64,000 bases of DNA from Trichococcus alkaliphilus (GTDB lineage Bacteria; Bacillota; Bacilli; Lactobacillales; Aerococcaceae). Both the position numbers and the translations under genes were made by a program. The stretch is taken from the NCBI RefSeq assembly GCF_003008695.1, contig NZ_PXZT01000011.1:1-64000 (forward strand), read 5' to 3'. Shown here one piece after another: positions 10,005 to 29,667 of the stretch. Numbering within the stretch: position 1 is the first letter of the stretch; each line of letters begins with the position of its first letter. The notes under the pieces were generated by a model. The model searched no databases. It was not told the DNA's origin and saw nothing but the letters and a program-made list of their open reading frames with translations.

Positions 10005-10011
10005 TGAATCA

Positions 10012-11333: not shown

Positions 11334-12110
11334 TTATTTTGTATAGGCGAGTTTTTTTGAGATTTCTTTCGACATGCGCAGCATGTATTCTTTTATTTTC
11401 TCAACTTTTTCATCAGTCATACGGAATACGGGGCCGCTGATGCTGATGGCTGCCACGACTTTTCCGGTGTAATCGATAAGCGGTACCGAAATGCATTTAG
11501 CTCCAATCTCGCATTCCTCGTTATCCATCGCCACACCTGTTTCTTGGACAGTTTCCAACTCCTTAAAAAGAGCCTCAGGTGTTGTGAGGGTTTTGGCGGT
11601 CAATGCCGGCATTCCTTTTTCTTTCAGGATGTCCTCGATTTCCTTCTCCGTGTAGTTGTGAAGAATATTTTTTCCAACGCTGGTCGCATGTAACGGAGCT
11701 CTTTTTCCGATCCGTTGCATCGTCTTCAGCATGTTGTCCGGCCCGTTGATGACATCGATGTAAACCACTTCATGATCTTCTTCGATAGCCAAACAGGAAG
11801 ATTCCTGGAATTCCTTCGATAGCGCGACCAGATCGTCATGGACCAAGTTACGGATATCATATTGCCCGCTCACCAGGCTGCCCAGTTGGGCCAATTTCAA
11901 GGTAAGTGCATATTTGGATGAGTCGGCGTTTTGGTAAACATATCCGAAGGAACTTAGCGTGCTTAAATAACGCAATACGGTGCTGCTGGGTGAATTCACT
12001 TGATCAGCGATGTCCTGCAGCCGCATTTCACCGCCTTGAGATACTAGTAATTCGATGATCTGCAATACTTTTTCGACCGATTGATTTTTTTTGACTTTTT
12101 TTTCAATCAC
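11334..12110 (-). CDS. IclR-family regulator, likely controlling the glyoxylate operon
   Basis: A 258-residue IclR protein. The N-terminal winged helix (about residues 8-75: NQSVEKVLQIIELL, MRLQDIADQVNSPSSTVLRYLSTL) is followed by the IclR effector domain with its GKRAPLHATSVGKNIL, AMDNEECEIGAKCISVPLID and VAAISISGP segments. The family includes AllR, which binds glyoxylate or allantoin and represses allantoin genes in E. coli. GTG 12110 is preferred because GAGGGGG precedes it; a longer frame reaches ATG 12164 without a ribosome site. It is transcribed divergently from gcl, with a perfect dyad in the shared region. The effector is inferred. Confidence 0.85.
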   Translation of the reverse strand: MIEKKVKKNQSVEKVLQIIELLVSQGGEMRLQDIADQVNSPSSTVLRYLSTLSSFGYVYQNADSSKYALTLKLAQLGSLVSGQYDIRNLVHDDLVALSKEFQESSCLAIEEDHEVVYIDVINGPDNMLKTMQRIGKRAPLHATSVGKNILHNYTEKEIEDILKEKGMPALTAKTLTTPEALFKELETVQETGVAMDNEECEIGAKCISVPLIDYTGKVVAAISISGPVFRMTDEKVEKIKEYMLRMSKEISKKLAYTK

Positions 12111-12215
12111 TTTGTTTTCCCCCTCGTGAAAGGATTTCTCTTGATTGCAGTTTACCATATTCAACCGAATTTCTCAATTTTAATTTCACTAGGAGAAAAC
12201 AGATTTCAAAAGTTG

Positions 12216-12244
12216 TTGACAGCGGAAAAAACCTCTGCTAAACT
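12216..12244 (+). promoter_or_regulatory. gcl operon promoter
   Basis: TTGACA (12216-12221), a 17-base spacer and TAAACT (12239-12244): a consensus -35 and good -10 in the divergent IclR/gcl region. Confidence 0.8.
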
Positions 12245-12269: not shown

Positions 12270-12284
12270 TTTCACAGAGTGAAA
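12270..12284 (+). promoter_or_regulatory. Putative IclR operator
   Basis: TTTCAC-AGA-GTGAAA is a perfect 6+3+6 dyad about 20 bases after the likely transcription start and just before the gcl ribosome site. A repressor bound here would block elongation. Assignment to the divergent IclR protein is inferred from position. Confidence 0.6.
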
Positions 12285-12302
12285 TTAGATGGAGGGAAAG
12301 AT

Positions 12303-13970
12303 ATGTTAGTAGCAGAAGCGATTGTACAAATTTTGGAAAAAGAAGGAATTGAAGACGTTTTCGGAATCCCAGGCGCTGGCATCAACCCAGTATACAAATA
12401 TTTGGAGAAATCCGATTCTATCAAACACATGGTCATGAGACACGAAGAAGCATGCACCCACGCAGCAGATGGATATTACCGTTCCAGCGGGAAAATGGCA
12501 ATGGCTACTTGTACAGCCGGTCCAGGTGCGACGAATTTTATTACTGGAATTTATACTGCGAACATCGATTCCATTCCATTTTTGGCATTGACGGGACAAT
12601 CCGTAAGATCGCAGTTGAACAAGGACGCTTTCCAGTCTGTCGACATCGTGTCGATCGCTAAACCGATCGCAAAAGGAGCCTGGTGCGTCATGGATCCGAA
12701 TGAGACCGTTAACATTTTCCGCGAAGGATTCCGGATCGCACGCGAAGGCAAACCAGGCCCGATCCTGATTGACTTGCCGCTGGATGTGCAGATGGCCGAA
12801 ATCGATTTTGACATCGAAAGCTACATCCCTTACGAAATCGAAAGACCGGCTCCCGAAACAGACAAAATCAAAGAGGCTCTACAATTGATTTCGGAAGCGA
12901 AAGCGCCTGTCATGATCATGGGCGGGGGTGTCATCCTTTCCGAAGCAACAAACGAATGCGTTGAGTTGGCTGAAATGCTGCAGTTGCCGGTCATCACAAC
13001 CTATATGGCGAAAGGCGGCATTCCTGTCAATCATCCATTGAACGCAGGCCATGCCGGTATTCAAGTCGGCGGCCCTCTTGGGAACAAAGTATTGAGCGAA
13101 GCGGATGTTGTTTTGGGAATCGGTTGCCGCTTCACGGACCGCCATACTGGGGATATCAAAGTGTATTCGGAAGGCCGTAAATTTATCCACATCGATATCG
13201 AACCGAGCCAAATCGGCAAAATCATCCCGGCTGAGATCGGTATCGTAGCCGATGCAAAAATGGCGATCGAAGCGTTAATGGCTGAAGCGAAACAAAGGGG
13301 AACATTCGGGGCGAAAGGGCTTGTGTCGGAATTGCCGCAATTGAGCATCGATCTGAAAAGGAAAACCGACTATGACAGCAGACCGATCAAACCACAGCGT
13401 GTATTCAAAGAGATGAATGAAGTGTTCGGTGATGAAGTCATGTACACGACCGGTTGCGGATTGACGCAAATCTGGTCAGGGCAACTGCAGGACATCAATC
13501 GTCCAAGAAAATACTTGCCATCAGGCGGTGCGGGTACTTTAGGTTTCGATATTCCTGGCGCAATCGGAGCTTCTGTTGGGGCACCGGGAATCAAAACCGT
13601 TACTGTTTTGGGTGATTTCGGATTCACATTCATGGTTGAAGAAATCGCTGTTGCGGCGGTCAACAACATTCCGTTGGTTGTTGTCATCGTCAACAATGCC
13701 TACTTGGGACTGATTCGCCAAAACCAAAATTATGGCTATGGTTTTGACTACGCTGTCCGCATGGCGGAAAACCAAGGCTTGATGGATTACGTTAAGGTAG
13801 CGGAAGGCTTCGGCTGCGAAGCGGAGCGCGTCTTCAATCCGGAGGACATCAAACCAGCCTTGGAACGTGCTTATGCATCGAACACACCTTACGTCATCGA
13901 TATCGTATGTGAAGAAGCGACAGATTGCTCAATGGGACCTAGCATCACAGCCGTAAGAGAATTCGTATAA
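12303..13970 (+). CDS. gcl: Glyoxylate carboligase (tartronate-semialdehyde synthase)
   Basis: A 555-residue TPP- and FAD-family carboligase that joins two glyoxylates into tartronate semialdehyde and CO2. Three domains are visible: the N-terminal pyrimidine-binding domain (FGIPGAGINPVY, ADGYYRSSGKMA), a central domain with GGGVILSEA, and the C-terminal TPP domain with GDFGFTFMVEEIAVAAVNNIP and VIVNNAYLGLIRQ. Segments such as VNNAYLGLIRQ, KPQRVFKEMNEVFG and EGRKFIHIDIEPSQIG match E. coli Gcl better than acetolactate synthases. At the position of Gcl Val51 it has Glu48 (MRHEEAC), the residue typical of acetolactate synthases. The operon context (hydroxypyruvate and glycerate enzymes) supports Gcl. 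ATG 12303 follows GGAGGGAAAG. Confidence 0.85.
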   Translation: MLVAEAIVQILEKEGIEDVFGIPGAGINPVYKYLEKSDSIKHMVMRHEEACTHAADGYYRSSGKMAMATCTAGPGATNFITGIYTANIDSIPFLALTGQSVRSQLNKDAFQSVDIVSIAKPIAKGAWCVMDPNETVNIFREGFRIAREGKPGPILIDLPLDVQMAEIDFDIESYIPYEIERPAPETDKIKEALQLISEAKAPVMIMGGGVILSEATNECVELAEMLQLPVITTYMAKGGIPVNHPLNAGHAGIQVGGPLGNKVLSEADVVLGIGCRFTDRHTGDIKVYSEGRKFIHIDIEPSQIGKIIPAEIGIVADAKMAIEALMAEAKQRGTFGAKGLVSELPQLSIDLKRKTDYDSRPIKPQRVFKEMNEVFGDEVMYTTGCGLTQIWSGQLQDINRPRKYLPSGGAGTLGFDIPGAIGASVGAPGIKTVTVLGDFGFTFMVEEIAVAAVNNIPLVVVIVNNAYLGLIRQNQNYGYGFDYAVRMAENQGLMDYVKVAEGFGCEAERVFNPEDIKPALERAYASNTPYVIDIVCEEATDCSMGPSITAVREFV

Positions 13971-14084
13971 ATATACACGGGGAAGGGGCAGCACGCTTGT
14001 TTGCGAAAAGTCGCAACCGAGAATGTGCTGCCGTCTTTACCGGCAAATAAGCAGTCAAACAAGACAGTAAAGGAAGGGAAAAAC

Positions 14085-14996
14085 ATGATAGAACCAATGC
14101 ATAAATATCTGCAGATCGGACTGATTCATTTTATGGCCTATCCACAGGCGATGAACTGGAAAGATCAAGGGAACGTCGTAGAAACCGTGAAAAAAATAGT
14201 TGTGGATGATTACTTTGATGCCATCGAGGTTTCGCATATCGAGAAGGATGAAGACCGCGCCGCAATCAAAAAAATGCTGGATTCCAGCCACATGAAAGTC
14301 TGCTACGGGGCGCAGCCGAGATTATTGACGGCTGGATTGAACCCGAATGCCATCGATGAGACGGAACGGCTGAAGGCGGAAGCCATTCTGATCGATTCGA
14401 TCGATGAAGCGGAATACCTCGGTGCAAAAGGGATCGCGTTCCTTTCCGGTAAATATGAGGAGGCTTCGAAGGAAGAAGCTTTCCGTCAATTGGTCAAGAC
14501 GACAAAAACTATCTGCGAATACGCGGCCAAGAAGGACATGACCATCACGTTGGAAGTCTTTGATTACGATCTCGATAAGAAATCACTAATCGGTCCGGCA
14601 CCTTATGCTGCAACATTTGCCGCCGAAATGCGCAGTCTGGTGGAAAATTTCGGGCTGATGATGGATCTGTCCCATATTCCGCAAACACACGAGACATCAA
14701 AATATGCTATCCAAGTCACTAAGCCTTATATCACACATCTGCATATGGGCAACGGCGTCGTGAAAGAGGGCGCAGAGGCATTCGGGGATACGCATCCACG
14801 CTTCGGGTTCCCGAACAGCGTAAATGATGTTCCGGAATTATTGGACTTTTTAAGGGTCCTGCAAGCAGAGGGATTCTTTGACAGTGTCAATCCGCCAGTG
14901 CTATCCTTCGAAGTGAAGCCATGGCAAGATGAAGATCCTGATATCGTCATCGCAAACGCCAAACGGACATTGAATCGTGCCTGGAGCCTGTTATGA
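14085..14996 (+). CDS. Xylose-isomerase-like TIM barrel, probable hydroxypyruvate isomerase
   Basis: A 303-residue protein of the AP-endonuclease-2/sugar isomerase TIM-barrel family. Likely metal ligands are Glu157 (ITLEVFDYD), Asp194 (MMDLSH), His220 (THLHMGN) and Glu276 (LSFEVKP), the usual Glu/Asp/His/Glu set. Between gcl and a hydroxyacid dehydrogenase, the obvious role is interconversion of tartronate semialdehyde and hydroxypyruvate (the Hyi reaction). Sequence resemblance to E. coli Hyi is only at fold level, so the substrate is inferred. ATG 14085 has AGGAAGGG upstream. The open frame back to 14001 is not needed. Confidence 0.7.
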   Translation: MIEPMHKYLQIGLIHFMAYPQAMNWKDQGNVVETVKKIVVDDYFDAIEVSHIEKDEDRAAIKKMLDSSHMKVCYGAQPRLLTAGLNPNAIDETERLKAEAILIDSIDEAEYLGAKGIAFLSGKYEEASKEEAFRQLVKTTKTICEYAAKKDMTITLEVFDYDLDKKSLIGPAPYAATFAAEMRSLVENFGLMMDLSHIPQTHETSKYAIQVTKPYITHLHMGNGVVKEGAEAFGDTHPRFGFPNSVNDVPELLDFLRVLQAEGFFDSVNPPVLSFEVKPWQDEDPDIVIANAKRTLNRAWSLL

Positions 14997-15013
14997 CACA
15001 AGGAGGAAATGAA

Positions 15014-15970
15014 ATGAAGATAGTTGTATTGGATGGCTATACGTTGAACCCGGGAGATCTCTCCTGGGAACGTCTGGAAAAATTAGGGGAATGCGCCATC
15101 TACGATCGCACTCCTAAAGATGAAGTCATCTCACGGATCGGGGATGCTTCGATCGTATTCACAAACAAAACACCTTTGACGGCTGAAATTTTCGCTGCTT
15201 GCCCGAATATCCGCTATGTCGGCGTTTTGGCGACGGGCTATAATGTCGTGGATACTGCAGCGGCCAAAGAGCTGGGCATCACCGTCACGAATATTCCGAC
15301 TTATGGGACTGCATCAGTTGCTCAATTCACTTTCGCCTTGCTGTTGGAAGTGTGCCACCATGTAGGCGAGCACGACAAAGCGGTCAAGCAAGGCCGTTGG
15401 CAGGAGTCAGGGGATTTTTGCTTCTGGGATTATCCGCTGATCGAATTGGCCGGCAAGAAGATGGGCATCATAGGCTTCGGCCGGATCGGCCAGGCTGTGG
15501 CAAAAATTGCGATCGCATTCGGGATGGACGTGCTGGCATACGACCGCTTTGCCGATAAGGGCTTGGAGAACGAGCATACAAAACTCGTCGAGTTGGACGA
15601 GCTATTGGAGAACGCCGATGTTGTTTCCTTGCATTGCCCGCTATTCCCGGAAACCGAGGGGATTATAAACGCTGCCGCATTGGCAAAAATGAAGCCAAGC
15701 GCCATTTTGATCAACACGTCCCGCGGTCCGTTGATCGTCGAAGCGGATTTGGCTGCTGCATTGAATGAAGGTAAGCTGCACGGTGCGGCAGTGGATGTCG
15801 TTTCGACAGAACCCGTAACGGAAGAAAACCCATTGTTCTCTGCGAAAAATTGCTTGATCACACCGCATATTGCATGGGCGCCGATTGAAGCCAGACAGCG
15901 CTTATTGGATATCGCAATCGATAATGCCGAAGCATTTTTGGAAGGGAAGCCAGTGAATAGCGTTTCTTGA
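15014..15970 (+). CDS. D-2-hydroxyacid dehydrogenase, probable hydroxypyruvate/glycerate dehydrogenase
   Basis: A 318-residue NAD(P)-dependent D-isomer 2-hydroxyacid dehydrogenase. The Rossmann motif is GFGRIG (154-159), and the catalytic triad is Arg237 (INTSRGPL), Glu266 (STEPV) and His285 (TPHIAWAP). GVLATGYNVVD and the overall length match glycerate dehydrogenases (HprA type). In this operon it should reduce hydroxypyruvate to D-glycerate, doing what GlxR does from tartronate semialdehyde in E. coli. Start ATG 15014 is set by AGGAGG; an in-frame ATG at 14993 overlaps the upstream stop codon. Confidence 0.83.
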   Translation: MKIVVLDGYTLNPGDLSWERLEKLGECAIYDRTPKDEVISRIGDASIVFTNKTPLTAEIFAACPNIRYVGVLATGYNVVDTAAAKELGITVTNIPTYGTASVAQFTFALLLEVCHHVGEHDKAVKQGRWQESGDFCFWDYPLIELAGKKMGIIGFGRIGQAVAKIAIAFGMDVLAYDRFADKGLENEHTKLVELDELLENADVVSLHCPLFPETEGIINAAALAKMKPSAILINTSRGPLIVEADLAAALNEGKLHGAAVDVVSTEPVTEENPLFSAKNCLITPHIAWAPIEARQRLLDIAIDNAEAFLEGKPVNSVS

Positions 15971-16007
15971 TGAATTGAATTTGCAATGATTGAAAAGGAG
16001 AACAGAC

Positions 16008-17264
16008 ATGAAACTGAGAGATGATGCAACATATATCATAAATCAATCGATTCAGGCGGTATTACCGGATAAGGCCGTCACAAATGCCTTGAGTAATATG
16101 GATATAGACAGCAACTGCCATATCATCGCGATCGGAAAAGCGGCTTGGCGCATGACAAAGGCGGCGGCGGATTGTCTGGGCGAACAATTCAAAGGCGGGG
16201 TGGCCTTGACAAAGTACGGCCATTCCCTCGGCGAAATCGAGCGGGTGACCATTTTTGAAGCCGGACATCCGATACCGGATCAGGCATCAATCGACGCAAC
16301 AACTGAGGTTCTGCGTTATGTATCCAGGATTCCGCAAGAAGACACGATACTGTTTTTGATTTCCGGAGGGGGGTCAGCACTGTTTGAAAAAACGCGTGAT
16401 CAGATCAGTTTGGCTGAATTGGAGGATATCAACAAGCAACTTTTGAACAGCGGCGCGAATATCGTCGAAATCAATACGATCCGTAAACATCTCTCGGAAG
16501 TAAAAGGGGGCCAATTCGCCCAGCTGTGTTCTCCTCGTCAAATCCAGGCCATCATCCTATCCGATGTTTTGGGCGACCGCTTGGATACGATCGCATCCGG
16601 TCCAGCTTACCCAGATTTTTCGACGAGCACAGAGGCGCAGAGGATTGTGGAGAAATACGCTTTGAAATTGTCGGAAAAGGCACGGGAAGCCTTGCAGAGG
16701 GAAACACCTAAGTCTTTGGATAACGTAAAGAATACGCTGATCGGGAGTGTGGATATTCTGTGCCGTGAGGCGGTATCCCATGCTCAAGCGTGCGGTTACC
16801 ATACCTGTCTGTTGTCGACCGCCATCGAAGAGGAAGCTTCTTCGGTAGGGGAACGTCTTGGGCAACTCGCCAGAAAAATTATCTCCGGGCAAGAAGATGC
16901 GCAGCTTCCGTGTGCGATTATCGCAGGTGGGGAGCCTGTCGTTACCATCAAAGGAGATGGCTTGGGCGGAAGGAACCAGGAATTAGCGCTGTCCGCGGCT
17001 TTTCAAATTTCCGGATTGCCGCAAGTGGTTTTGGCATCGGTCGGATCGGACGGAACGGATGGACCTACGGATGCGGCGGGAGGACTTGTTGATGGCGCCA
17101 GCTTAACGCGCATGCGACAAAGCTACGCTGATGTGGAAGGTTTGTTGGCGAATAATGATTCCAATAAAGCCCTTGAAAGCAGCGGGGATCTGATCGTTAC
17201 GGGTCCTACCGGCACGAATGTGAACGATCTGATTGTTTTGTTGATAGAGAAAGCACCAGCCTAA
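16008..17264 (+). CDS. Glycerate 2-kinase (MOFRL/DUF4147 type)
   Basis: A 418-residue kinase of the GckA/TtuD type (glycerate kinase type II). The N-terminal DUF4147 part has HIIAIGKAAWRM, GHPIPDQAS and LISGGGSALFE; the C-terminal MOFRL part has IIAGGEPVVTIKGDGLGGRNQELAL and SVGSDGTDGPTDAAG. It phosphorylates D-glycerate to 2-phosphoglycerate, which enters lower glycolysis. It is the last gene of the glyoxylate operon. AAAAGGAG precedes the start. The whole operon therefore leads from glyoxylate to 2-phosphoglycerate. A terminator follows. Confidence 0.9.
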   Translation: MKLRDDATYIINQSIQAVLPDKAVTNALSNMDIDSNCHIIAIGKAAWRMTKAAADCLGEQFKGGVALTKYGHSLGEIERVTIFEAGHPIPDQASIDATTEVLRYVSRIPQEDTILFLISGGGSALFEKTRDQISLAELEDINKQLLNSGANIVEINTIRKHLSEVKGGQFAQLCSPRQIQAIILSDVLGDRLDTIASGPAYPDFSTSTEAQRIVEKYALKLSEKAREALQRETPKSLDNVKNTLIGSVDILCREAVSHAQACGYHTCLLSTAIEEEASSVGERLGQLARKIISGQEDAQLPCAIIAGGEPVVTIKGDGLGGRNQELALSAAFQISGLPQVVLASVGSDGTDGPTDAAGGLVDGASLTRMRQSYADVEGLLANNDSNKALESSGDLIVTGPTGTNVNDLIVLLIEKAPA

Positions 17265-17278: not shown

Positions 17279-17331
17279 AAACAGCTAAAGAAGGCTCGGG
17301 AAAAATTCCCGGGCCTTCTTTAGCTGTTTCA
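17279..17331 (+). terminator. Bidirectional terminator between glycerate kinase and esterase genes
   Basis: An almost perfect 20-pair stem (AGCTAAAGAAGGC... with ...GCCTTCTTTAGCT) has T on one side and A on the other, so it can stop transcription from both convergent genes. Confidence 0.92.
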
Positions 17332-18369: not shown

Positions 18370-19596
18370 ATGGACTGGTTTAAGACAATTCAAGAAAATA
18401 TTGATTTATTATCGGGTATCGGCAGCGATCCAACGGGCGGTATGACGCGCTTGCTTTACTCCGATTCTTGGTTGGAAGCTCAGAATGCCGTAAAAAACAA
18501 ACTGGAAGAAATCGGAATGGAAACACATTTTGATGAAATCGGAAATCTTTTCGGAAGAATGGAAGGTTCGGAATACCCGGATGAAACAATCATGTCCGGT
18601 TCGCATATAGACACCGTCATCAATGGGGGCAATCTGGATGGCCAATTCGGTGTGATAGCGGCTTATGTCGCTATGGCTTACTTAAAAGAGACATATGGAC
18701 AGCCATTGCGATCAATGGAAGTCATCTCGATGGCCGAGGAAGAGGGCAGCCGCTTCCCGACCGTATTCTGGGGAAGCAAAAACTTTGTGAATGAAGCCAA
18801 AATCGAGGACGTCGAGGCGATCAGCGATTTTGAAGGCATCCGATTTGTGGATGCGATGCGTCAAGCCGGATTCGACTTTAAGAAGGGTGAACAGAAGCGA
18901 AGGGAAGATATCAAGGCTTTCGTGGAACTGCACATCGAACAAGGGAATGTCCTTGAAAACCAGGGGCTGCAAATTGGAGTCGTCAACAGCATTGCCGGTC
19001 AACGGCGTTACACCATCATTCTGAAAGGTCAAGCGAACCATGCCGGAACGACACCGATGGGTTACCGCCGCGATGCAGTTTATGCTTTCAGCCGGATTTG
19101 TGCTGAGTCGATCGAAAAGGCGAGAGGAATCGGTGATCCGTTGGTGTTGACCTTCGGAAAAGTGGAACCGAAACCGAATACGGTGAATGTGGTGCCGGGA
19201 GAAGTTCTGTTCACAATCGACTGCCGTCATACGGACAGCAATGTGCTGATTGATTTCACCCAAAAACTGGAGCAACGCATCAATGAAATTGCGAGTGAAA
19301 TGGATATCGAGGCAACCATCGACCTTTGGATGGACGAAGCACCCGTTCCGATGGATGCAAACATCGTCTCGATCCTCGAGGAAGCCGCTAAAAAAGCACA
19401 TATGAAATACCGCGTGATGCACAGTGGAGCCGGACACGATTCCCAAATCATCGCACCGCATTACCCGACTGCCATGATTTTTGTTCCAAGCATCGGGGGC
19501 ATCAGCCACAATCCGGCTGAAGCAACCAAGCTTGAAGATTTGGTGGAAGGCGTCAAGATGATGGCAAGCGCGCTTTACGAGTTAGCATACAAATAG
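18370..19596 (+). CDS. allC: Allantoate amidohydrolase (allantoate deiminase)
   Basis: A 408-residue M20-family amidohydrolase. It hydrolyses allantoate to ureidoglycine, ammonia and CO2. Metal ligands can be followed: His79 (SGSHIDTV), Asp90 ([10 protein letters not shown]), the Glu pair in MAEEEGSRF, His188 (VELHIEQG) and the late His in GGISHNPAE. The dimerisation lid segment [17 protein letters not shown] is typical of AllC and ureidopropionases. It is the first gene of a seven-gene operon (allC, E, D, F, G, H, K). GGAGGAGG lies ahead of the start. The leader contains a poor cre-like half (AAGCGCTTACA, 18323-18333). Confidence 0.93.
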
Positions 19597-19627
19597 AAAA
19601 TATCAAACGGATAGGGTGGATAGAAGG

Positions 19628-20413
19628 ATGGGCTATAAGAACAAGCAAACAGGTTATAGAGACGGACTCTTGGAATCAAGAGCCGTCATAAAAAGAGCAA
19701 ACTACGCTTTGATCCCACATGATGGATTGGTGAAAAATGTCGTTCCCGGATTTGAAAATTGCGAGGTCACGATTTTGGCTTCGCAAAAACTGGGAGCCAG
19801 CTTTGTGGATTACATCATTTCGATGCAGGCCGGCGGCAATAATGTGCAAGGCTTCGGAGCTGAGGGCGTAGAAACCTTTGTTTACGTCGTAGACGGAAAG
19901 TTGAGAGTAAGTGATGGAACGGAGAGCCATGAATTGGAGACTGGTGGTTACGCCTACTTGCCGGCTGGCGTGTTGATGCATCTGGAAAACAACCAGGAAG
20001 AGGCTACGGAAATCTTCCTTTACAAAAAACGCTATGAACCTTTGGAAGGCCATGAAGCGCGTAAAGTCGTGGGCAACATCAATGACTTAGTTCCTACCGA
20101 ATATGAAGGGATGAAAGATGTCTTGTTGTGGGATCTGTTGCCGACTGATATTGGTTTTGACATGAATTTCCATATCCTTTCGTTCGAACCGGGCGCTAGC
20201 CATGGCTATATCGAAACCCATGTACAGGAACACGGAGCGTACATCTTGTCTGGTCAAGGTATGTACAACTTGGATAATGACTGGATGTCTGTAGAGAAAG
20301 GCGATTATATCTTTATGGGCGCATATGTGCCGCAAGCCGCATACGCAGTCGGCAGAGGTGAGCCATTGCGTTACGTCTATTCTAAGGACTGTAACCGCGA
20401 TCCTAAAATTTGA
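19628..20413 (+). CDS. allE: (S)-ureidoglycine aminohydrolase
   Basis: A 261-residue bicupin. It releases ammonia from (S)-ureidoglycine to give (S)-ureidoglycolate. The N-terminal cupin has [18 protein letters not shown] and [12 protein letters not shown]; the catalytic C-terminal cupin has [25 protein letters not shown] with the Mn ligands His, His and Glu and a later Gln/His region ([10 protein letters not shown]). Its place after allC supports the call. ATG 19628 is preferred over GTG 19616 because GGGTGG is correctly spaced from it. Confidence 0.92.
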
Positions 20414-20431
20414 GGACAAGGAGCATAACAA

Positions 20432-21517
20432 ATGGAAGGCACAGGAATAGAAGTTGAGGCGAAATTAGTTACTGTAATGCCTGATGAACTTCATCGACTG
20501 ATCAAAAATAAATTAGAGGGAGCAGGACTGCATCCTGAGCAAGCAAATGAGGTCGCCAACCACTTGGTGTTTGCGGATTCTTCAGGAATCCATTCCCATG
20601 GTGCCGTACGCGTCGATTACTATGCTGAAAGGATTTCCAAGGGTGGAGTGACCCTTTCACCCGATGTTTCTTTCGAAAAGACAGGAGAAAGCACTGGGAT
20701 TTTTCATGGCGACAACGGAATCGGTCAGTATGTCGCGAACCTAGGCCTGAAGGAAGCTATTGCCATGGCGAAGGAAGCTGGTGTGGCGGTGGTGGGCATT
20801 TCCAGAATGAGCCACAGCGGCGCACTGTCCTATTATGTAAAGCAAGCGGCTGAGCAAGACCTGATTGCGATTGCCATGTGCCAATCCGATCCGATGGTTG
20901 TTCCTTTCGGAGGTTCGGAAATCTATTACGGAACAAATCCGATTGCCTTTTCGGCGCCAAGGAAAAATGGTCCGCCGATCGTCTTCGATATGGCAACGAC
21001 TGTACAGGCTTGGGGGAAAATCCTCGATGCCCGTTCAAAAAATAAAGCCATACCGGACACCTGGGCAGTGGATAAAGATGGGAAACCGACAACAAACCCA
21101 CATGACGTGCATGGATTGCTGCCTATTTCGGGTCCAAAAGGGTACGGACTGATGATGATGATTGATATTTTATCAGGCGTGCTGTTAGGGCTGCCTTTCG
21201 GGAAGCATGTTTCCTCTATGTATGACCAAATTTCTGAAGGACGCAACCTTGGGCAATTATATATCATCATCGATCCAAAAAAATTCACGGATATAGAGAG
21301 TTTCAAAGAAAAAATCGAGACGACGGTGGCGGAATTGCATGAAGTCAAACCGGCAGCCGGGTTCAGTCAAGTCTATTATCCAGGCGAAATCAACCAATTG
21401 AACTATGAAAAGTACCAGCAACAGGGTATCCCTGTCGAGGAGAGCATTTACGCTTATCTGAAAAGTGATCTGATTCATTTTGACCAATACGGCGGCAAGG
21501 GAGCTTTTGCGGAATAA
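20432..21517 (+). CDS. allD: Ureidoglycolate dehydrogenase
   Basis: A 361-residue enzyme of the malate/L-sulfolactate dehydrogenase (LDH2) family. It oxidises (S)-ureidoglycolate to oxalurate with NAD+. Family segments include SHGAVRVDYYAERI near the start, the catalytic His in RMSHSGALSYYV, YYGTNPIAFSAPR and GPKGYGLMMMIDILSGVLLG. AGGAGCATAAC precedes ATG 20432. In anaerobic allantoin users this step supplies oxalurate for ATP formation by the next four genes. The C-terminal codons overlap an open frame belonging to the next gene, whose real start lies 55 bases further on. Confidence 0.92.
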   Translation: MEGTGIEVEAKLVTVMPDELHRLIKNKLEGAGLHPEQANEVANHLVFADSSGIHSHGAVRVDYYAERISKGGVTLSPDVSFEKTGESTGIFHGDNGIGQYVANLGLKEAIAMAKEAGVAVVGISRMSHSGALSYYVKQAAEQDLIAIAMCQSDPMVVPFGGSEIYYGTNPIAFSAPRKNGPPIVFDMATTVQAWGKILDARSKNKAIPDTWAVDKDGKPTTNPHDVHGLLPISGPKGYGLMMMIDILSGVLLGLPFGKHVSSMYDQISEGRNLGQLYIIIDPKKFTDIESFKEKIETTVAELHEVKPAAGFSQVYYPGEINQLNYEKYQQQGIPVEESIYAYLKSDLIHFDQYGGKGAFAE

Positions 21518-21572
21518 GCATTTGATCGAAGCACACAAAAAGAAACGGGAAACCGGGGAAGAGAGGCAATCA

Positions 21573-23345
21573 ATGTTACACACAATCATCAAATCAAACA
21601 GCTACCAGGATTCCATCGTTTTGATGCTGTTGACGAATAAAATCAACACGGTCGCGGGAGTCACAAAAGTTTCCATCATGATGGGTACGCCCGCCAATAA
21701 AGATATCTTCAAAACAGGAGGGCTGTACACTCCGGAACTGGAGAAAGCATCGTCGAATGATATGGCTGTCGTCCTGGAAGTGGAAGATGAAGCAGTCATA
21801 GCTACAGTCATGGAGGAAATCGATCTTTTCCTGGAGGAACAGGCAAAAGGAAACAGCGGAGCATCAGTAGAAGAGACTGCCCGTACGTGGGACAAAGCCT
21901 TGGAAATGGCAAAAGATGCTCAAGTCGCGCTCTTTTCGATCCCTGGCACCCATGCAGCGCTTGAAATCGAGCGCGCGCTTGATGCCGGCAAACATGTCTT
22001 CTGTTTCAGCGATAATGTCTCGATCGAAGATGAAAAACGCCTAAAGATGAAGGCACATGAAAAAGGTCTGCTGCTGATGGGGCCGGATTGCGGAACAGGA
22101 ATCATCAATGGCATTCCATTGGCTTTCACAAATGTCATCAGACCAGGGAAAATAGGCATCGTCGGAGCTTCGGGAACAGGGATCCAAGAAGTTTCCACGC
22201 TTATCCATAAATTGGGAGGCGGCGTAACGAATGCAATCGGCACTGGCGGACGCGACCTGAAAGAGAACATCGGCGGTATCACGTTGATGGACGGTATCAT
22301 CACATTGGAGCAGGACCCGAACACGGAAGTGATCGTCGTCATCTCCAAACCACCGGCAGCCAGCGTCAGGGACAGGGTTCTGGCTTTACTGAGAAAAATT
22401 TCCAAACCGGCAGTAACAATCTTCCTGGGCGAAAAACCGACTTATCACGAACCTGATCTTTATCATGCCTATACGTTGGAGGAAGCGGCTGAACTGGCTG
22501 TCAAACTGGTGAACAAAGAAACGATCAGCTCCGAGGCTGATGCAGTCGCTGTGCCTGCCGTCAACTTCTCCGATGAGCAAAAATACATCAAAGGCTATTA
22601 CTCCGGCGGCACATTAGCCAATGAAGCGGCCATGCTGATCAAAGATGGCCTTAGTTTGACCACGGACGCTGAGAAAAAAGAAGGCTACATACTTAAAAAT
22701 GAAGGTTATGAAGTCCTTGATTTGGGGGACGACATTTATACGCAAGGCAAACCGCACCCGATGATCGATCCGGAAAAACGGATTGAAATGATCAGAAAAG
22801 CAGCGGATGATCCGAAGACAGCGGTCATTTTGTTGGATATTGTTTTGGGCTACGGCTCGCACATGGATATGGCCAGCGAATTGGTGCCGGCCATCAAGGA
22901 AGCGAAGTCGAAAGCCGCTGCTGAAGGCAGAGAGCTTGCGTTCGTTGCGACGATCGTAGGGACTGATGCTGATCCTCAAGACGGCCAAGCACAACAAAAA
23001 GTATTGGAAGATGCTGGAGTTATTATCCGGATGAGTAACAACCAAGCGGTCCGCACGGCTTTGGCGATGCTGGGAATCCATATCCAAGACAACAAAAAGG
23101 ACCTGAAAGAAATCGATGCCCCTGCATTCACAGAAGAACTAGCGCCTTCACAAGCTATGTTGGACCTTCTGCATGCGAAAGATTTTTTGAATATTGGTCT
23201 GCGCAGTTTCTCCGATACCATCCGTGAAAACGGTGGGAAAGCGACGCAATTCGATTGGCGTCCGGTTGCGGGTGGCAACGTCACCTTGCAGAAAGCATTG
23301 TATTACTTGAATAATTATAAAACTGAACAAACAGATAGCATATAA
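21573..23345 (+). CDS. allF: FdrA/AllF, subunit of the oxalurate (oxamate) carbamoyltransferase
   Basis: A 590-residue FdrA protein, distantly related to succinyl-CoA synthetase alpha/beta subunits. Visible segments are FSIPGTHAALEIERALDAGKHVF, MGPDCGTGIINGIPLAF, GIVGASGTGIQEVSTLIHKLGGG and LDIVLGYGSHMDM. In E. coli FdrA, YlbE and YlbF (AllF, AllG, AllH) have been assigned to the carbamoyltransferase that splits oxalurate with phosphate into oxamate and carbamoyl phosphate. ATG 21573 with GAGAGG is the real start; the open frame continues upstream into allD. allG and allH follow immediately, so the complex is complete here. Confidence 0.88.
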   Translation: MLHTIIKSNSYQDSIVLMLLTNKINTVAGVTKVSIMMGTPANKDIFKTGGLYTPELEKASSNDMAVVLEVEDEAVIATVMEEIDLFLEEQAKGNSGASVEETARTWDKALEMAKDAQVALFSIPGTHAALEIERALDAGKHVFCFSDNVSIEDEKRLKMKAHEKGLLLMGPDCGTGIINGIPLAFTNVIRPGKIGIVGASGTGIQEVSTLIHKLGGGVTNAIGTGGRDLKENIGGITLMDGIITLEQDPNTEVIVVISKPPAASVRDRVLALLRKISKPAVTIFLGEKPTYHEPDLYHAYTLEEAAELAVKLVNKETISSEADAVAVPAVNFSDEQKYIKGYYSGGTLANEAAMLIKDGLSLTTDAEKKEGYILKNEGYEVLDLGDDIYTQGKPHPMIDPEKRIEMIRKAADDPKTAVILLDIVLGYGSHMDMASELVPAIKEAKSKAAAEGRELAFVATIVGTDADPQDGQAQQKVLEDAGVIIRMSNNQAVRTALAMLGIHIQDNKKDLKEIDAPAFTEELAPSQAMLDLLHAKDFLNIGLRSFSDTIRENGGKATQFDWRPVAGGNVTLQKALYYLNNYKTEQTDSI

Positions 23346-23361
23346 GGGAGGAGAAACAAGG

Positions 23362-24627
23362 ATGCATTATCAAACGATTGATGAAGCTAATCAAGCAGTA
23401 GCTGCTAAAATTGTTGCTGGATCCCCTTTCTTAGTGGATGTTGTACCAGCAAAATCAGTGATCAAAGAATTTAACGAAGGGAAAGTCCTGCTGCATGCAG
23501 GACCACCCATCAAATATGAGCAAATGGTCGACCCGATCCAAGGTGCTTGTGTAGGTGCAGCGCTTTTTGAGGGCTGGGCGGAAAATGAAGCCGATGCCAG
23601 AAAATTATTGGAATCTGGAGAGGTTACCTTGATCCCTTGCCATCATGTCAATGCGGTCGGTCCAATGGGCGGGATCACTTCGGCAAATATGGCAGTTCTG
23701 ATCGTGGAAAACAGGACGGACGGGAACCGTGCCTTCTGTACGATGAATGAAGGGATTGGTGCAGTGCTGCGTTTCGGAGCTTATTCCGATGAAGTAATCA
23801 CTCGTTTGCGTTGGATGCGCGATGTCTTGGGCCCAACCCTAAGCAAAGCGCTGCAAACCAAACCAGGCGGATTGAACGTGAATGTATTGGTTGCTAAAGC
23901 AATCGCTATGGGGGATGAATTCCACCAAAGAAACATTGCCGCATCCTTGGTCTTTTTGAAAGAAATGTCGCCGATTGTCGTCGGATTGGATATGGATCAA
24001 AAAGAAAAAGAACAGGTCATGCAATTCTTGGCGGACACGGACCAATTCTTCCTGAACATCATGATGGCAGCCGCTAAAGCTGTCCTGGATGGCGCAAGGA
24101 CAATCCAAGAGGGAACGATCGTCACAGCAATGTGCCGCAATGGATATGAATTCGGTATCCGCATCGCAGGAATGGGAGATGAATGGTTCACAGGACCGGT
24201 CAACACTCCGCAAGGACTTTATTTCTCAGGATTCAGCGAAGACGATGCTGCTCCGGATATGGGGGACAGTGCCATAACTGAGACATTCGGTGTCGGTGGC
24301 ATGGCGATGATCGCAGCGCCTGCAGTTACGCGTTTTGTAGGCAGCGGTGGATTCCAGGATGCCCTACAGACAAGTAATGAAATGCGTGAAATCTGTATCG
24401 ACCAGAATCCGAACTTCTCAGTACCAACGTGGGATTTCCAAGGCATCTGCCTAGGCATCGACGCCCGTAAGGTCGTTGAAACCGGCATCACACCGGTCAT
24501 TAATACCGGCATCGCCAACAAGAAGGCTGGTTTGGGCCAAATCGGAGCCGGAACGGTGCATCCACCGATCGCATGTTTCGAAAAAGCCGTATTGGCTTAT
24601 GCCAAAAAATTAGGTTTCCAGGAATAA
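23362..24627 (+). CDS. allG: YlbE/AllG (DUF1116), subunit of the oxalurate carbamoyltransferase
   Basis: A 421-residue DUF1116 protein, the YlbE family. Characteristic segments are LLHAGPPIKYEQM, PIQGACVGAALFEGWA, CHHVNAVGPMGGITSANMAV, MNEGIGAVLRFGAYSDEV and MCRNGYEFGIRIAG. It is a subunit of the three-part carbamoyltransferase with FdrA and YlbF. It starts 16 bases after allF, with GGGAGGAG as ribosome site. The assignment rests on family and gene order; no active-site residues are established to me for this family. Confidence 0.88.
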   Translation: MHYQTIDEANQAVAAKIVAGSPFLVDVVPAKSVIKEFNEGKVLLHAGPPIKYEQMVDPIQGACVGAALFEGWAENEADARKLLESGEVTLIPCHHVNAVGPMGGITSANMAVLIVENRTDGNRAFCTMNEGIGAVLRFGAYSDEVITRLRWMRDVLGPTLSKALQTKPGGLNVNVLVAKAIAMGDEFHQRNIAASLVFLKEMSPIVVGLDMDQKEKEQVMQFLADTDQFFLNIMMAAAKAVLDGARTIQEGTIVTAMCRNGYEFGIRIAGMGDEWFTGPVNTPQGLYFSGFSEDDAAPDMGDSAITETFGVGGMAMIAAPAVTRFVGSGGFQDALQTSNEMREICIDQNPNFSVPTWDFQGICLGIDARKVVETGITPVINTGIANKKAGLGQIGAGTVHPPIACFEKAVLAYAKKLGFQE

Positions 24628-24636
24628 CAAAGGGGG

Positions 24637-25545
24637 ATGGTCGCAGTGTTCATAAAGGCAGCTTACCATGACGAACGCTTGACGGACACGCTGCAAAATA
24701 AGAGCACTTGGCGCGTCCATAGCCTATTCAATAAAAGTTTGAACATTCAAAGTGCTGATCAGGAAAATTTGATGCTGATAGCAGGTACAGCCTCACCGCG
24801 GTTGCCGAAAGCGTTGTATCTTCCGGATGACATGTTGGGGAAACTGGTCGGAACCGTTCAACCCGGCCAACCCGTTTCCATCTCGGACGGTAGGCTAATT
24901 TTCGAAGGATGCACTATTGTTGTTGATGGGACACCGCATTATCAGTCCCGCTATGCAACGGAACAAGGTTTGCATCAGGGAAGTTTGCGATATTACGTGG
25001 CATCGATGGCGAAAATCGAAAAGTTGAACGGTTTCGATTTCATAATGGCTGACTTGACGCGGGATTCATTTTTAGCGAATACCCCGGAAGGCAATCATTT
25101 CCTGCGGCTGTATTCGGGTGACGCGGGCAATAGAACCGAGGCGATAAGTTACTTCATCGGAAGAGGCAAGGGGTTGACGCCGTCCGGTGACGATCTTCTT
25201 GTGGGTGCTTTGGCAGCCGATCAGCTTCTGGGGATGCTTCCGGCGGATACGGAAGGCCTCATCAGGAAGCGCTTGTCGCAAACTCCGAAGCCGACTACAA
25301 CAGTAAGTGAACATTATCTGGCGTGCGCCCTGGATGGTCTTTACAACGAACCCATCCATCGTTTGCTGCATGTTTTGCGGCAGGAAAGTGAAGAAAAAGC
25401 CATAGAAGAATGCATCAAACATATAATGGCGATCGGACATACGTCCGGACTGGATATGTTGACAGGCCTTACGGGTGCCCTGTTAGTATGGAACAGATTT
25501 GAAGGAGGATACAATCAATGGCAAAAAGAGTTGTCATCGCTCTAG
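24637..25545 (+). CDS. allH: YlbF/AllH (DUF2877), subunit of the oxalurate carbamoyltransferase
   Basis: A 302-residue DUF2877 protein, the YlbF family. Its best signature is IGRGKGLTPSGDDLLVGALAA in the second half, a glycine-rich loop suggestive of phosphate or substrate binding, plus GHTSGLDMLTGLTGAL near the end. It belongs to the same complex as AllF and AllG. It begins ten bases after allG and overlaps the carbamate kinase gene by 28 bases, in a different frame, so the four genes are tightly coupled. GGGGGATGG precedes ATG 24637. Confidence 0.87.
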   Translation: MVAVFIKAAYHDERLTDTLQNKSTWRVHSLFNKSLNIQSADQENLMLIAGTASPRLPKALYLPDDMLGKLVGTVQPGQPVSISDGRLIFEGCTIVVDGTPHYQSRYATEQGLHQGSLRYYVASMAKIEKLNGFDFIMADLTRDSFLANTPEGNHFLRLYSGDAGNRTEAISYFIGRGKGLTPSGDDLLVGALAADQLLGMLPADTEGLIRKRLSQTPKPTTTVSEHYLACALDGLYNEPIHRLLHVLRQESEEKAIEECIKHIMAIGHTSGLDMLTGLTGALLVWNRFEGGYNQWQKELSSL

Positions 25546-26459
25546 GCGGGAACGCAATCCTGCGCCCGAACCAAGAAGCGACGTTCGATAACCAGATGCA
25601 CAACATCAAGATGAGTGCGGAGCTGATTGCAAAAATAGAAAAACTGGATTATGAAATCGTAGTGACGCACGGAAATGGTCCGCAAGTAGGGAATATCCTG
25701 CGCCAAAATGAGGAAGCGAAGGATATCGTTCCTCAGATGCCGTTGGATGTCTGCAGCGCGGAATCGCAAGGATTCATCGGGTATATGATGGAACAATCTC
25801 TGAAAAATGCTTTGAATGAGGAAGAATTGACGAGCGGCGTATTGACGTTATTGACGCAAACGGAGGTATCACCGGATGATCCTGCGTTCGATAATCCTAC
25901 AAAACCGATTGGAGTCTTCTATTCCGAAGAAGAGGCCGAGTTGTTGTCGGAAGAAAAAGGTTGGGTCATGATGGAAGATGCCGGAAGAGGCTACCGCCGG
26001 GTTGTCCCTTCCCCACAACCGCAGAAAATTCATGGCGTGGAGTCCATCCTGAAGTTATTAAAACAAAATACGATCGTAATCGCAGGTGGCGGCGGGGGGA
26101 TTCCGGTAGTCCGCAACAAAATCGGCCAAATATCAGGAATCGAAGCCGTGATCGATAAAGATCGCACCGGCAAAAAGTTGGCGGAACAATTGGATGCCGA
26201 TGTATTCATGATGCTGACGGACGTCAGCAATGTCTACATCAATTACGGTAAACCGAACCAAGAAAAACTTGAAGAAATTTCCGTTCTGAAAGCGAAACAA
26301 TATTTGGATGAAGGCCAGTTTGCGGACGGCAGCATGGGTCCAAAAATGGAGGCAGCCATCGACTTTGCTATGCAAGGTAAAAAAGCTATCATCTGTTCAT
26401 TGGACCAAGCGGCTGAAGCTTTATCCGGTTTTGCGGGTACGCGCATCGTCAACGGTTAA
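25518..26459 (+). CDS. allK: Carbamate kinase of the allantoin operon
   Basis: A 313-residue carbamate kinase (amino-acid kinase fold). It transfers phosphate from carbamoyl phosphate to ADP, giving ATP, CO2 and ammonia. Motifs are IALGGNAIL at the start, VVTHGNGPQVGNI, IAGGGGGIPVV and GSMGPKMEAAIDF. The ribosome site GAAGGAGG lies within allH. By position it uses the carbamoyl phosphate made from oxalurate, so this is the energy-yielding step of the pathway. An arginine-deiminase role (arcC) is less likely because no arcA or arcB is present. A terminator follows. Confidence 0.93.
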   Translation: MAKRVVIALGGNAILRPNQEATFDNQMHNIKMSAELIAKIEKLDYEIVVTHGNGPQVGNILRQNEEAKDIVPQMPLDVCSAESQGFIGYMMEQSLKNALNEEELTSGVLTLLTQTEVSPDDPAFDNPTKPIGVFYSEEEAELLSEEKGWVMMEDAGRGYRRVVPSPQPQKIHGVESILKLLKQNTIVIAGGGGGIPVVRNKIGQISGIEAVIDKDRTGKKLAEQLDADVFMMLTDVSNVYINYGKPNQEKLEEISVLKAKQYLDEGQFADGSMGPKMEAAIDFAMQGKKAIICSLDQAAEALSGFAGTRIVNG

Positions 26460-26473
26460 ATAAAGAAACAAAG

Positions 26474-26515
26474 AACAGGAGGTTGTCTCATTACGAGGCT
26501 ATCTCCTGTTTTTGT
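26474..26515 (+). terminator. Terminator after the carbamate kinase gene
   Basis: AACAGGAG (26474-26481) pairs with CTCCTGTT (26503-26510), followed by TTTGTTG. Confidence 0.7.
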
Positions 26516-26537
26516 TGTGCGACAAGCACGGCGAAAT

Positions 26538-26566
26538 AGCCCGCCAAAAAGCATTTTTGGCGGGCT
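26538..26566. repeat. Perfect hairpin between convergent genes
   Basis: AGCCCGCCAAAAA (26538-26550) is exactly repeated in inverse at 26554-26566 with a three-base loop. Neither side has a T run outside the stem, so it is not a classic terminator. It may help end the minus-strand pucR transcript. Confidence 0.6.
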
Positions 26567-26646
26567 GAAATACATTGAATTGCACAGAATAGCCTCCCGA
26601 AAATCATCACACTCTATTCAAACGTGTTCTGAATCCCATAAATACT

Positions 26647-28278: not shown

Positions 28279-28343
28279 TAAAAACCCTCCTAGTGGCTTT
28301 AATTTTAATTGAAACCGCCATCATCATCAAGTGTTTATTTGGG

Positions 28344-28423
28344 CATAACCTACAAATTTCATATTATTTTGTTCATAACATACAATGACATTTTTGCTGA
28401 GAATGGTAGGATGTAAGTAAATT
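28344..28423 (+). promoter_or_regulatory. pucG promoter with two upstream direct repeats (putative PucR sites)
   Basis: CATAACCTACAA (28344-28355) and CATAACATACAA (28374-28385) differ at one base and start 30 bases apart, about three helical turns. A promoter-like TTGCTG (28394-28399), 18 bases and TAAATT (28418-28423) follow. Repeats ahead of a weak -35 suit an activator. The motif differs from the published B. subtilis PucR box as I remember it, so the link is inferred. Confidence 0.45.
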
Positions 28424-28455
28424 ATCAGACCAATAATCAATCTGGAGGAATAGTT

Positions 28456-29667
28456 ATGTTCAAAGAAATCATCACACCCATCCGCACCATTATGACACCT
28501 GGTCCTGTAGAAGCTCATCCGAATGTACTTCGTGTCATGAGCACGCCTATTTTGGGACAGTTCGATCCAGCATTCTTAGCCATCATGGATGAAGTGCAAG
28601 AAATGATCAAAATTCCGTTTGGAACAAAAAATGAGCAGGCTTTTGCCATCGATGGCACATCGCGTTCAGGGCTGGAAGCTGCGTTTATCGGGCTGATTGA
28701 GCCCGGAGACAAAGTGCTGATTCCTGCATACGGGCGCTTCGCGTATTTGTTGGGCGAAATCTGCGAACGCGCGAAAGCGCAAGTGACTTACTTGGAAAAA
28801 GACTGGGACAGTGTCTTTGAAGAAGATGCGATCATCGCAGAAATCAAAAGGGTCAATCCTAAAATAGTCGCACTCGTTCATGGGGAAACAGCGAACGGCC
28901 AGATGCAACCGCTGGAAAAAATCGGTAAATTTTGCCAAGAGAACGACGTGTTTTTTGTGGTCGATACAGTCGCCACTTATGGTGGAGCACCCGTGAAGGT
29001 GGATGAATGGGGCATAGATATCGCCATCGCAGGCACCCAGAAATGTGTGAGCGTGCCATCCGGGTTGTCTTTGATCACCTATAACGACCGTGTGGAGAAG
29101 GTTTTGACAGCGCGCTACCAGAAGGAACTTGGTCTGAGCAAAGATTTCCGCAATGACCGCCACATCAGCAGCAATTACTTGGACTTGAGCCAACTGCAAC
29201 GCTACTGGAACAAAGAACGCATCAACCACCATACCGAAGCAACCAGCATGATCTACGCACTGCACGAAGGCCTGCGGATGATGATCCAGGAAGGCATCGA
29301 GAACGGTTATGAACGGCATAGCCAAAATGACCGCGCCATTCAGGCTGGTATTGAAGCGATGGGCTTGGAAATCTTCGGTGACCGCAAAACGAAAATGCCG
29401 ACGGTTACGCCTATCCTGATTCCTGAAGGTGTCGACGGTGATGCGGTACGCAATACATTGTTGCATGATTTCGGTGTCGAAATCGCTTCTTCATTCGGTC
29501 CATTGCAAGGGAAAGTCTGGAGAATCGGCAATATGGGCTTCAGCAGCCGCAAGGAGAATGTATTGCACGTGCTGGCTGCTTTCGAAGCGGCACTCCTGTT
29601 CCACAGGGCAGACATCAACCGCGGGGAAGCCGTCTTGGCGGCTCTGCGTGAGTATAACCAAAAATAG
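28456..29667 (+). CDS. pucG: (S)-ureidoglycine-glyoxylate aminotransferase (PucG-like)
   Basis: A 403-residue class V PLP aminotransferase. The PLP lysine is Lys196 in IAGTQKCVSVPSGLS, with the Asp of VVDTVATYGG pairing with the ring nitrogen. The N-terminal TPGPVEAHPNVLRVMSTPILGQFDPAF matches PucG and alanine-glyoxylate aminotransferases. In purine catabolism this enzyme transfers the amino group of ureidoglycine to glyoxylate, giving oxalurate and glycine. The divergent pucR gene and neighbouring allantoin genes favour PucG over a serine- or alanine-glyoxylate aminotransferase. GGAGG precedes the start. Confidence 0.88.
   Translation: MFKEIITPIRTIMTPGPVEAHPNVLRVMSTPILGQFDPAFLAIMDEVQEMIKIPFGTKNEQAFAIDGTSRSGLEAAFIGLIEPGDKVLIPAYGRFAYLLGEICERAKAQVTYLEKDWDSVFEEDAIIAEIKRVNPKIVALVHGETANGQMQPLEKIGKFCQENDVFFVVDTVATYGGAPVKVDEWGIDIAIAGTQKCVSVPSGLSLITYNDRVEKVLTARYQKELGLSKDFRNDRHISSNYLDLSQLQRYWNKERINHHTEATSMIYALHEGLRMMIQEGIENGYERHSQNDRAIQAGIEAMGLEIFGDRKTKMPTVTPILIPEGVDGDAVRNTLLHDFGVEIASSFGPLQGKVWRIGNMGFSSRKENVLHVLAAFEAALLFHRADINRGEAVLAALREYNQK

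Follow-up and report, generated by a model that had tools for sequence, protein, structure and literature searches.

In the lactic acid bacterium Trichococcus alkaliphilus, a 64,000-nucleotide stretch of contig NZ_PXZT01000011.1 (assembly GCF_003008695.1, positions 1 to 64,000; hereafter the window) carries four intact open reading frames on the plus strand. These encode, in order, a Gcl-like thiamine diphosphate (ThDP) enzyme (12303..13970, 555 residues), a xylose-isomerase-like TIM barrel protein (14085..14996, 303 residues; PF01261), a D-2-hydroxyacid dehydrogenase (15014..15970, 318 residues; PF02826/PF00389) and a MOFRL-type (class II) glycerate kinase (16008..17264; DUF4147 plus MOFRL), matching the gene order that a sequence-only reading of this DNA had given. 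The best-supported account of this quartet is that it is probably a glyoxylate-salvage operon of the allantoin pathway that passes through hydroxypyruvate, a route whose catalytic steps and directions we infer from the gene set and its surroundings.

The Gcl-like protein aligns with Escherichia coli Gcl over its full length (44% identity, 571 columns), scores higher with a Gcl model than with an acetolactate synthase model (652.7 versus 505.1 bits) and retains the NNAYLGLIRQ-type stretch. It nevertheless lies below both curated Gcl cut-offs (652.7 against 791 for NF008431, 556.8 against 711.2 for TIGR01504) and carries glutamate at the site equivalent to Val51 of E. coli Gcl. Because a 2012 survey calls valine at this position characteristic of the entire Gcl family (PMC3534367), we do not file the protein as a Gcl member. 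One residue comparison covered tblastn hits with at least 85% query cover and no stops (16 Gcl-like sequences, one of them E. coli's own, and 46 TIM barrel sequences). In a separate Gcl tree, glutamate occupies this position in all 23 Bacillota rows, the window's included (22 distinct sequences, L036 and L073 being the same), and valine in six of the seven canonical-side rows. The seventh, from Nonomuraea, has glutamate; it had been labelled 'canonical' in the tree before this was seen. The Bacillota rows form one side of a branch (94/99), sister to the canonical Gcl side, in a tree whose tool warned of long branches there. Since the Nonomuraea Glu-type gene directly adjoins Hyi-like (34%) and GarR-like (42%) genes (L090:4374-7686), a Glu-type enzyme probably makes tartronate semialdehyde (TSA). 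The window's protein most likely works as a Gcl does and is predicted to form TSA from two glyoxylates. The Nonomuraea protein also offers a third lineage for testing the role of the glutamate. Acetolactate synthase was rejected as the identity of the gene, as the genome encodes a separate one (766.8 bits) and the window's row clusters with Gcl.

The TIM barrel protein matches PF01261 at 66.8 bits (cut-off 31.1), a model that E. coli Hyi matches at 162.2 bits, and by this profile the two are distant relatives within one Pfam superfamily. Direct comparison with E. coli Hyi gave no significant similarity (BLASTP E 0.15, hhalign probability 0.8%), and the Hyi family itself (TIGR03234, cut-off 353.45) was rejected on finding no match; the sole match to that model in the genome, at 20.2 bits, lies at a different locus (C24). 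Its only NCBIfam matches, IolO (35.8 bits) and psicose epimerase (31 bits), are both far below cut-off. An AlphaFold model (predicted local distance difference test 92.6, predicted template modelling score 0.90) has ketose 3-epimerase-like proteins and xylose isomerases as its nearest structural matches, with 3wqo superposing at Z 29.0 and a root-mean-square deviation of 2.2 over 256 residues; 3wqo, 5h1w and 8z1i share the fold at 15–18% identity. Among 50 VIA-align rows none is described as a hydroxypyruvate isomerase, which excludes nothing. Residues E157, D194, H220, E276 and H197 are invariant in 33 aligned TIM sequences, and the first four sit at or near strand ends in the model; this E-D-H-E set, a pattern shared with the ketose 3-epimerases, comprises putative metal ligands. 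Fold and residue pattern fit the enediolate 1,2-shift that conversion of TSA to hydroxypyruvate requires, and the protein is therefore predicted to be a TSA/hydroxypyruvate isomerase, with the substrate taken from genomic context. Elsewhere, the protein is 98% identical in T. collinsii, and a relative of 37% identity occurs on Thermus megaplasmids (L089:9004-9906), with no gcl or dehydrogenase in the fetched stretch.

The dehydrogenase matches PF02826 (213 bits) and PF00389 (88.4 bits) and carries GFGRIG at 154, AYDRF at 175 and R237, E266 and H285, motifs and residues whose roles we presume from related enzymes; D177, after the second strand, presumably favours NADH. No NCBIfam model exceeds its cut-off (best PRK06487, 343 against 448), and the nearest PDB chain, 5tx7, bears no more specific name than that of a family protein. 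E. coli GlxR is built differently, from NAD_binding_2 and NAD_binding_11 domains. The protein is predicted, from its family and setting, to be an NADH-dependent hydroxypyruvate reductase. The kinase matches DUF4147 (256.4 bits) and MOFRL (126 bits) and falls under the cut-offs of the only two NCBIfam glycerate 2-kinase models that it matched (262.4 against 550, 229.4 against 670); E. coli GlxK (PF02595) shows no significant similarity to it. It is a predicted D-glycerate 2-kinase of the kind for which class II naming has been used (PMC2063504). The same source states that no member of the family is known as a hydroxypyruvate reductase, and that identity for the MOFRL gene was rejected.

Downstream, an allantoin cluster on the plus strand (18370..32874) comprises allC, allE, allD, fdrA (allF), ylbE (allG), ylbF (allH), a carbamate kinase gene, an aminotransferase gene, a permease gene and allB, with a PucR regulator gene on the minus strand at 26647-28278. 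AllC (717.7 bits), AllE (354), AllD (601.2), AllB (782.2), FdrA (710.1) and the carbamate kinase ArcC (419.6) score above cut-off; the aminotransferase lies under every cut-off, and ylbE and ylbF have no NCBIfam match at 1e-10. The names ylbE, ylbF, aminotransferase, permease and PucR are putative assignments based on position. Because AllC, AllE, AllD, FdrA, carbamate kinase and AllB pass their cut-offs downstream of the quartet, the quartet would constitute a glycerate branch beside the oxamate branch of allantoin breakdown, the latter as described for E. coli (PMC12535856, PMC11326118).

The four closely spaced genes look like one transcription unit within this cluster. Each ATG start (12303, 14085, 15014 and 16008) follows a GGAGG- or AAGGA-like, ribosome-binding-like sequence, the gcl start lying 33 bases inside the one first proposed. 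Pattern matching placed a promoter-like TTGACA-17-TAAACT on the plus strand upstream of gcl (12216..12244; 10 of 12 consensus positions), a site that is weak by itself, as the scanned region holds 12 such sites against a shuffle mean of 7.5. A terminator-like stem of 20 pairs (19 standard pairs and one G-T) lies on the plus strand at 17281..17327, the longest of 14 terminator-like sites in the scanned region (shuffle mean 6.9). An IclR-family regulator gene (11334..12164, minus strand; PF01614 plus PF09339) diverges from gcl, with KdgR (173.9 bits) and BhcR (173.0 bits) as NCBIfam matches, both below cut-off; many of the other gcl loci likewise have IclR-like genes close to gcl. An Rfam scan of 9000-35000 returned nothing at gathering score. 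Beyond the regulator, inspection by eye of 8141-11086 suggests nagA- and nagB-like genes followed by genes resembling DhaL and DhaM; no DhaK-like frame was apparent between them.

The quartet recurs well outside the window. Each of the other six TIM-bearing Trichococcus genomes has it, as does Bacillus (L011), and the window's order returns in L059 (genome G177, from the same taxonomic order), where gcl, the TIM barrel gene and the dehydrogenase gene are followed by a PF02595 kinase gene and allC, and on an Enterococcus gilvus plasmid (L088), where gcl, TIM barrel, dehydrogenase and PF02595 kinase genes lie beside an allantoin permease gene and allB. Given this recurrence across Trichococcus, Bacillus, L059 and the E. 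gilvus plasmid, genome comparison argues that the quartet is not a chance arrangement. Moreover, the fourth gene in L059 and E. gilvus encodes a Gly_kinase (PF02595, as in E. coli GlxK) and not a MOFRL protein; because a glycerate kinase of another Pfam family fills the same slot, the product delivered to the kinase is most likely glycerate. In E. gilvus a small cupin gene follows the kinase gene (L088:12070-12432), with no NCBIfam match at 1e-10. Separately, a contig named Sedimentibacter sp. SX930 (L008) carries a whole Trichococcus-like cluster with a TIM barrel protein of 97% identity; it contains the DNA of L054 from G067, a genome given as the window's genus, and is probably misnamed or mixed.

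Co-occurrence of gcl and the TIM barrel gene points the same way. At E 1e-20, the TIM barrel gene is present in 7 of 13 Trichococcus genomes and in none of 63 other genomes of the family, and gcl and TIM are together present (seven) or together absent (six) in all 13, and two of the six lacking both reach a completeness of only 51% and 63%. Of 299 Bacilli genomes sampled, two carry gcl, the window's and G177. Among 391 sampled clostridial genomes, gcl occurs in 7, TIM in 24 and both in 6. A TIM match thus accompanies gcl in 6 of 7 genomes, whereas 18 of the 384 genomes that lack gcl have one (Fisher p = 1.9e-7); with the centre genome removed, the figures become 5 of 6 and p = 2.6e-6. This count ignores kinship, and both scans apparently drew on the same sample. 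Two of the six genomes with both, G493 and G746, have a TIM match of only 50–54% identity.

On this evidence, the Gcl-like enzyme would join two glyoxylates into TSA and CO2, the metal-dependent TIM barrel protein would turn TSA, by way of an enediolate, into hydroxypyruvate, the D-2-hydroxyacid dehydrogenase would reduce hydroxypyruvate with NADH to D-glycerate, and the MOFRL kinase would phosphorylate D-glycerate to 2-phosphoglycerate, an intermediate of glycolysis; the TIM barrel protein and the dehydrogenase would stand in for Hyi and GlxR. Gene content, order, families, the conserved metal-type residues, recurrence and co-occurrence are established here.

The sequence-only reading had predicted this route partly on the ground that no TSA reductase accompanies it. 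No GlxR/GarR gene (TIGR01505/NF008592) indeed lies at the window's quartet locus, but the reading that the genome as a whole has none was rejected: a search of it (G000; 2.96 Mb, 25 contigs) found one GarR-type TSA reductase at C6 (451.9 bits against a cut-off of 397; 385.7 against 340.75) and matches under cut-off at C7 and C11. Judged by eye, this GarR gene lies inside a glucarate-type operon with glucarate-dehydratase-like and GlxK-type genes; the stretch (L047:4086-14620) reads as transporter, UxaA-like, two glucarate-dehydratase-like, sugar-diacid regulator, GarR, DapA-like and GlxK-type kinase genes. In none of the six quartet-bearing congeners, 98–100% complete, does a TSA reductase exceed the TIGR01505 cut-off; in each the only hit is one paralogue of 233–243 bits, which the six quartet-less congeners possess too and which in the window's own genome, as a beta-hydroxyacid dehydrogenase gene, sits among seemingly unrelated genes. 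Because these six congeners lack a TSA reductase over cut-off, in six of the seven quartet carriers the route would need a different reductase, or a TSA reductase that escapes the models. Across the 22 gcl stretches besides the window, some of them short (L053, 3,909 base pairs; L078, 3,990; L083, 5,260), no GlxR match is listed.

Several findings weigh against the route through hydroxypyruvate. The Gcl-like protein bears glutamate in place of the family's valine, the TIM barrel protein is not of the Hyi family, and the window's own genome encodes GarR; TSA reductases over cut-off also occur in 10 of 20 genomes checked, none of them Trichococcus. Only 8 of the 38 loci with a TIM barrel protein of at least 45% identity have gcl within the fetched stretch (38 of 41 loci in all, several short or near-copies such as L037-L039), and on the TIM tree the gcl label is somewhat clustered, 16 of 500 shuffles needing as few changes. 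An AllA-type ureidoglycolate lyase (PF04115) was found in none of 10 genomes, the window's cluster included; glyoxylate might instead come from ureidoglycolate, which is described as decaying to it spontaneously (PMC3793230), or from a lyase of yet another kind. Valentine et al. (1964) are said to have reported TSA reductase activity in Streptococcus allantoicus. Finally, because Hyi of Pseudomonas aeruginosa may run from hydroxypyruvate to TSA (PMC12694930), the presence of an isomerase does not fix the direction. What keeps the predicted route best supported is the set of congeners without a TSA reductase, the occupation of the canonical slots and the kinase exchange.

The gcl loci themselves are divided. 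Of the 22 besides the window (L006-L012, L036 (= L073), L053, L059, L068-L072, L078, L080-L084 and L088), eight lack a full TIM–dehydrogenase pair adjoining gcl (L068, L069, L071, L078, L080, L081, L082 and L084), which likewise counts against the proposed route. The 14 with the pair in the cluster are biased upward, since L006-L012, L036 and L053 were reached through TIM. Four of the eight pair-less loci belong to genomes with a TIM match elsewhere (G457, G493, G579 and G701); L068, L069 and L071 have theirs at L020, L025 and L041, and for G423 no TIM match was reported. Counted by genome, five of the ten listed through gcl searches (the window's, G177, G374, G423, G457, G493, G579, G701, G746 and E. 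gilvus) have the pair in the cluster, or three of eight once the starting points, the window and G374, are set aside. Arrangements vary: in G374 gcl is in opposite orientation with a regulator gene between it and the pair, and in G746 the pair contains a TIM1-type paralogue. The [Clostridium] citroniae genome has two gcl genes; next to one of them the dehydrogenase gene is truncated within the first half (L069:8347-9027), and at the other (L070) the neighbouring genes are full-length.

Viewed from the TIM side, the TIM–dehydrogenase pair is widespread among Clostridia, in most cases with no gcl in the vicinity, and its substrate is for that reason one that we infer. The dehydrogenase gene lies at most 300 base pairs behind TIM in 34 of the 38 loci, 26 of these without gcl in the stretch, and in L013 it lies between two TIM genes. 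Within the 38, a split transketolase occurs in 13 loci (L013, L015, L019, L022-L025, L030, L031, L037-L039 and L042), a glycerate kinase in 13 and GlxR in 5. Representatives of the transketolase loci include genes for an IolO-like TIM barrel (in 7 of the 13), an Asp/Glu-racemase-like protein, a PrpR-like sigma-54 regulator and TctA. In the TIM tree, which omitted L006-L008, L038, L039 and L044-L046 and held 11 of the 13 transketolase loci in group TK, gcl-linked rows stand in several places among transketolase- and GlxR-linked rows. Because the gcl label needs seven changes, at least six of them forced, the gcl–TIM linkage arose or was lost repeatedly. The simplest account is a substrate shared across the gcl, transketolase and GlxR settings, and TSA, hydroxypyruvate and glycerate would fit all three, since the Gcl-like enzyme would make TSA, GlxR uses TSA and glycerate kinases use glycerate; a transketolase acting on 4-keto-pentonate would leave TSA, chemistry that exists on paper only. 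We therefore raise, as a tentative though serious possibility, that TIM and dehydrogenase form a portable TSA-to-hydroxypyruvate-to-D-glycerate module in Bacillota, distinct from Hyi plus GlxR, that serves behind either a Glu-keeping Gcl-like enzyme or a split transketolase releasing TSA from 4-keto-pentonate.

Three other explanations of the quartet were weighed. In the first, hydroxypyruvate forms from TSA non-enzymatically, the dehydrogenase alone carries the flux and the TIM barrel protein, which travels with it, acts on another sugar acid as an epimerase or isomerase. Ready tautomerisation of TSA at neutral pH has been reported (PMC12694930), the TIM barrel protein resembles ketose 3-epimerases with only sub-threshold IolO and psicose epimerase matches, and the pair is common without gcl. 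This explanation nevertheless leaves the joint presence or absence of TIM and gcl in all 13 Trichococcus genomes and the repeated changes of the gcl label on the TIM tree unaccounted for, and gcl loci with a close dehydrogenase adjacent also have TIM, except L069, where the dehydrogenase is truncated; we consider it unlikely. The second makes the dehydrogenase a glyoxylate reductase that disposes of electrons by forming glycolate, with TSA reduced by GarR or by a housekeeping beta-hydroxyacid dehydrogenase. Glyoxylate reductases do occur among its PDB relatives, and, besides GarR in the window's genome, a beta-hydroxyacid dehydrogenase of 233–246 bits occurs in all 13 Trichococcus genomes. However, GarR exceeds cut-off in only one of the 13, and there in a glucarate-type operon, the paralogue keeps seemingly unrelated company in the window's genome and is equally present in the six gcl-less genomes, and the dehydrogenase stands regularly behind TIM, mostly where gcl is absent from the stretch; this account is decidedly improbable. 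Very unlikely indeed is the third, that the protein under both curated Gcl cut-offs is a different ThDP carboligase marked by its active-site glutamate, found in every Bacillota row against the family's valine (PMC3534367), and that the four genes degrade another compound, as the allantoin setting, the separate acetolactate synthase, the retained NNAYLGLIRQ-type stretch and the Hyi-like and GarR-like neighbours of the Nonomuraea protein all speak against it.

The route through hydroxypyruvate has recognizable counterparts. E. coli gcl-hyi-glxR ... glxK (NC_000913.3) likewise places gcl first, the isomerase second and the reductase third, with a glycerate kinase and allantoin genes nearby, whereas here Hyi is replaced by a PF01261 relative without detectable pairwise similarity, GlxR by a D-2-hydroxyacid dehydrogenase and GlxK by a MOFRL kinase, behind a Gcl-like enzyme with glutamate at position 51. 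A canonical allantoin cluster of Deinococcus sets allE, allB and allC beside gcl-hyi-glxR-kinase, the same slots, the two middle genes being exchanged in Trichococcus. The P. aeruginosa gcl cluster PA1498-1502 (PMC12694930) also supports allantoin-stimulated conversion of glyoxylate through glycerate to pyruvate, uses a glycerate kinase unlike GlxK and raises the same question of the purpose of a TSA/hydroxypyruvate isomerase; there GlxR, which prefers TSA, is its reductase, and Hyi may convert hydroxypyruvate back into TSA, whereas here the set has no GlxR and a hydroxypyruvate-reductase-like enzyme would pull the opposite way. A design for tobacco peroxisomes, tried as a photorespiration bypass, joined Gcl to a TSA/hydroxypyruvate isomerase and added no TSA reductase gene (PMC3252329); unlike the Trichococcus set it is synthetic, used E. 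coli genes and did not yield detectable Hyi protein. In strain RM, an anaerobe that degrades dichloroacetate, Gcl, Hyi, Ghr and Gck were jointly more abundant (PMC8092247), but so was GlxR, and the likeness is one of protein names. Our literature search, which covered few subscription journals, turned up no publication that describes the operon or assigns these families such a function, and this variant of the glycerate pathway is probably new.

If correct, the route would supply sequences for a branch by which fermenting Bacillota assimilate glyoxylate through hydroxypyruvate, and functions for two families annotated in E. gilvus merely as 'TIM barrel protein' and 'D-2-hydroxyacid dehydrogenase'. 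The Glu-type enzyme would then let nature itself help to explain the absence of the glutamate from canonical Gcl; were the portable module real, loss of that glutamate would not be required for glyoxylate carboligation, contrary to the view that treats valine as the Gcl mark. The finding is also relevant to the breakdown of allantoin by anaerobes, a subject of early work on Streptococcus (Carnococcus) allantoicus of the Lactobacillales, in which oxamic transcarbamylase was already assayed in the 1960s (PMC11326118).

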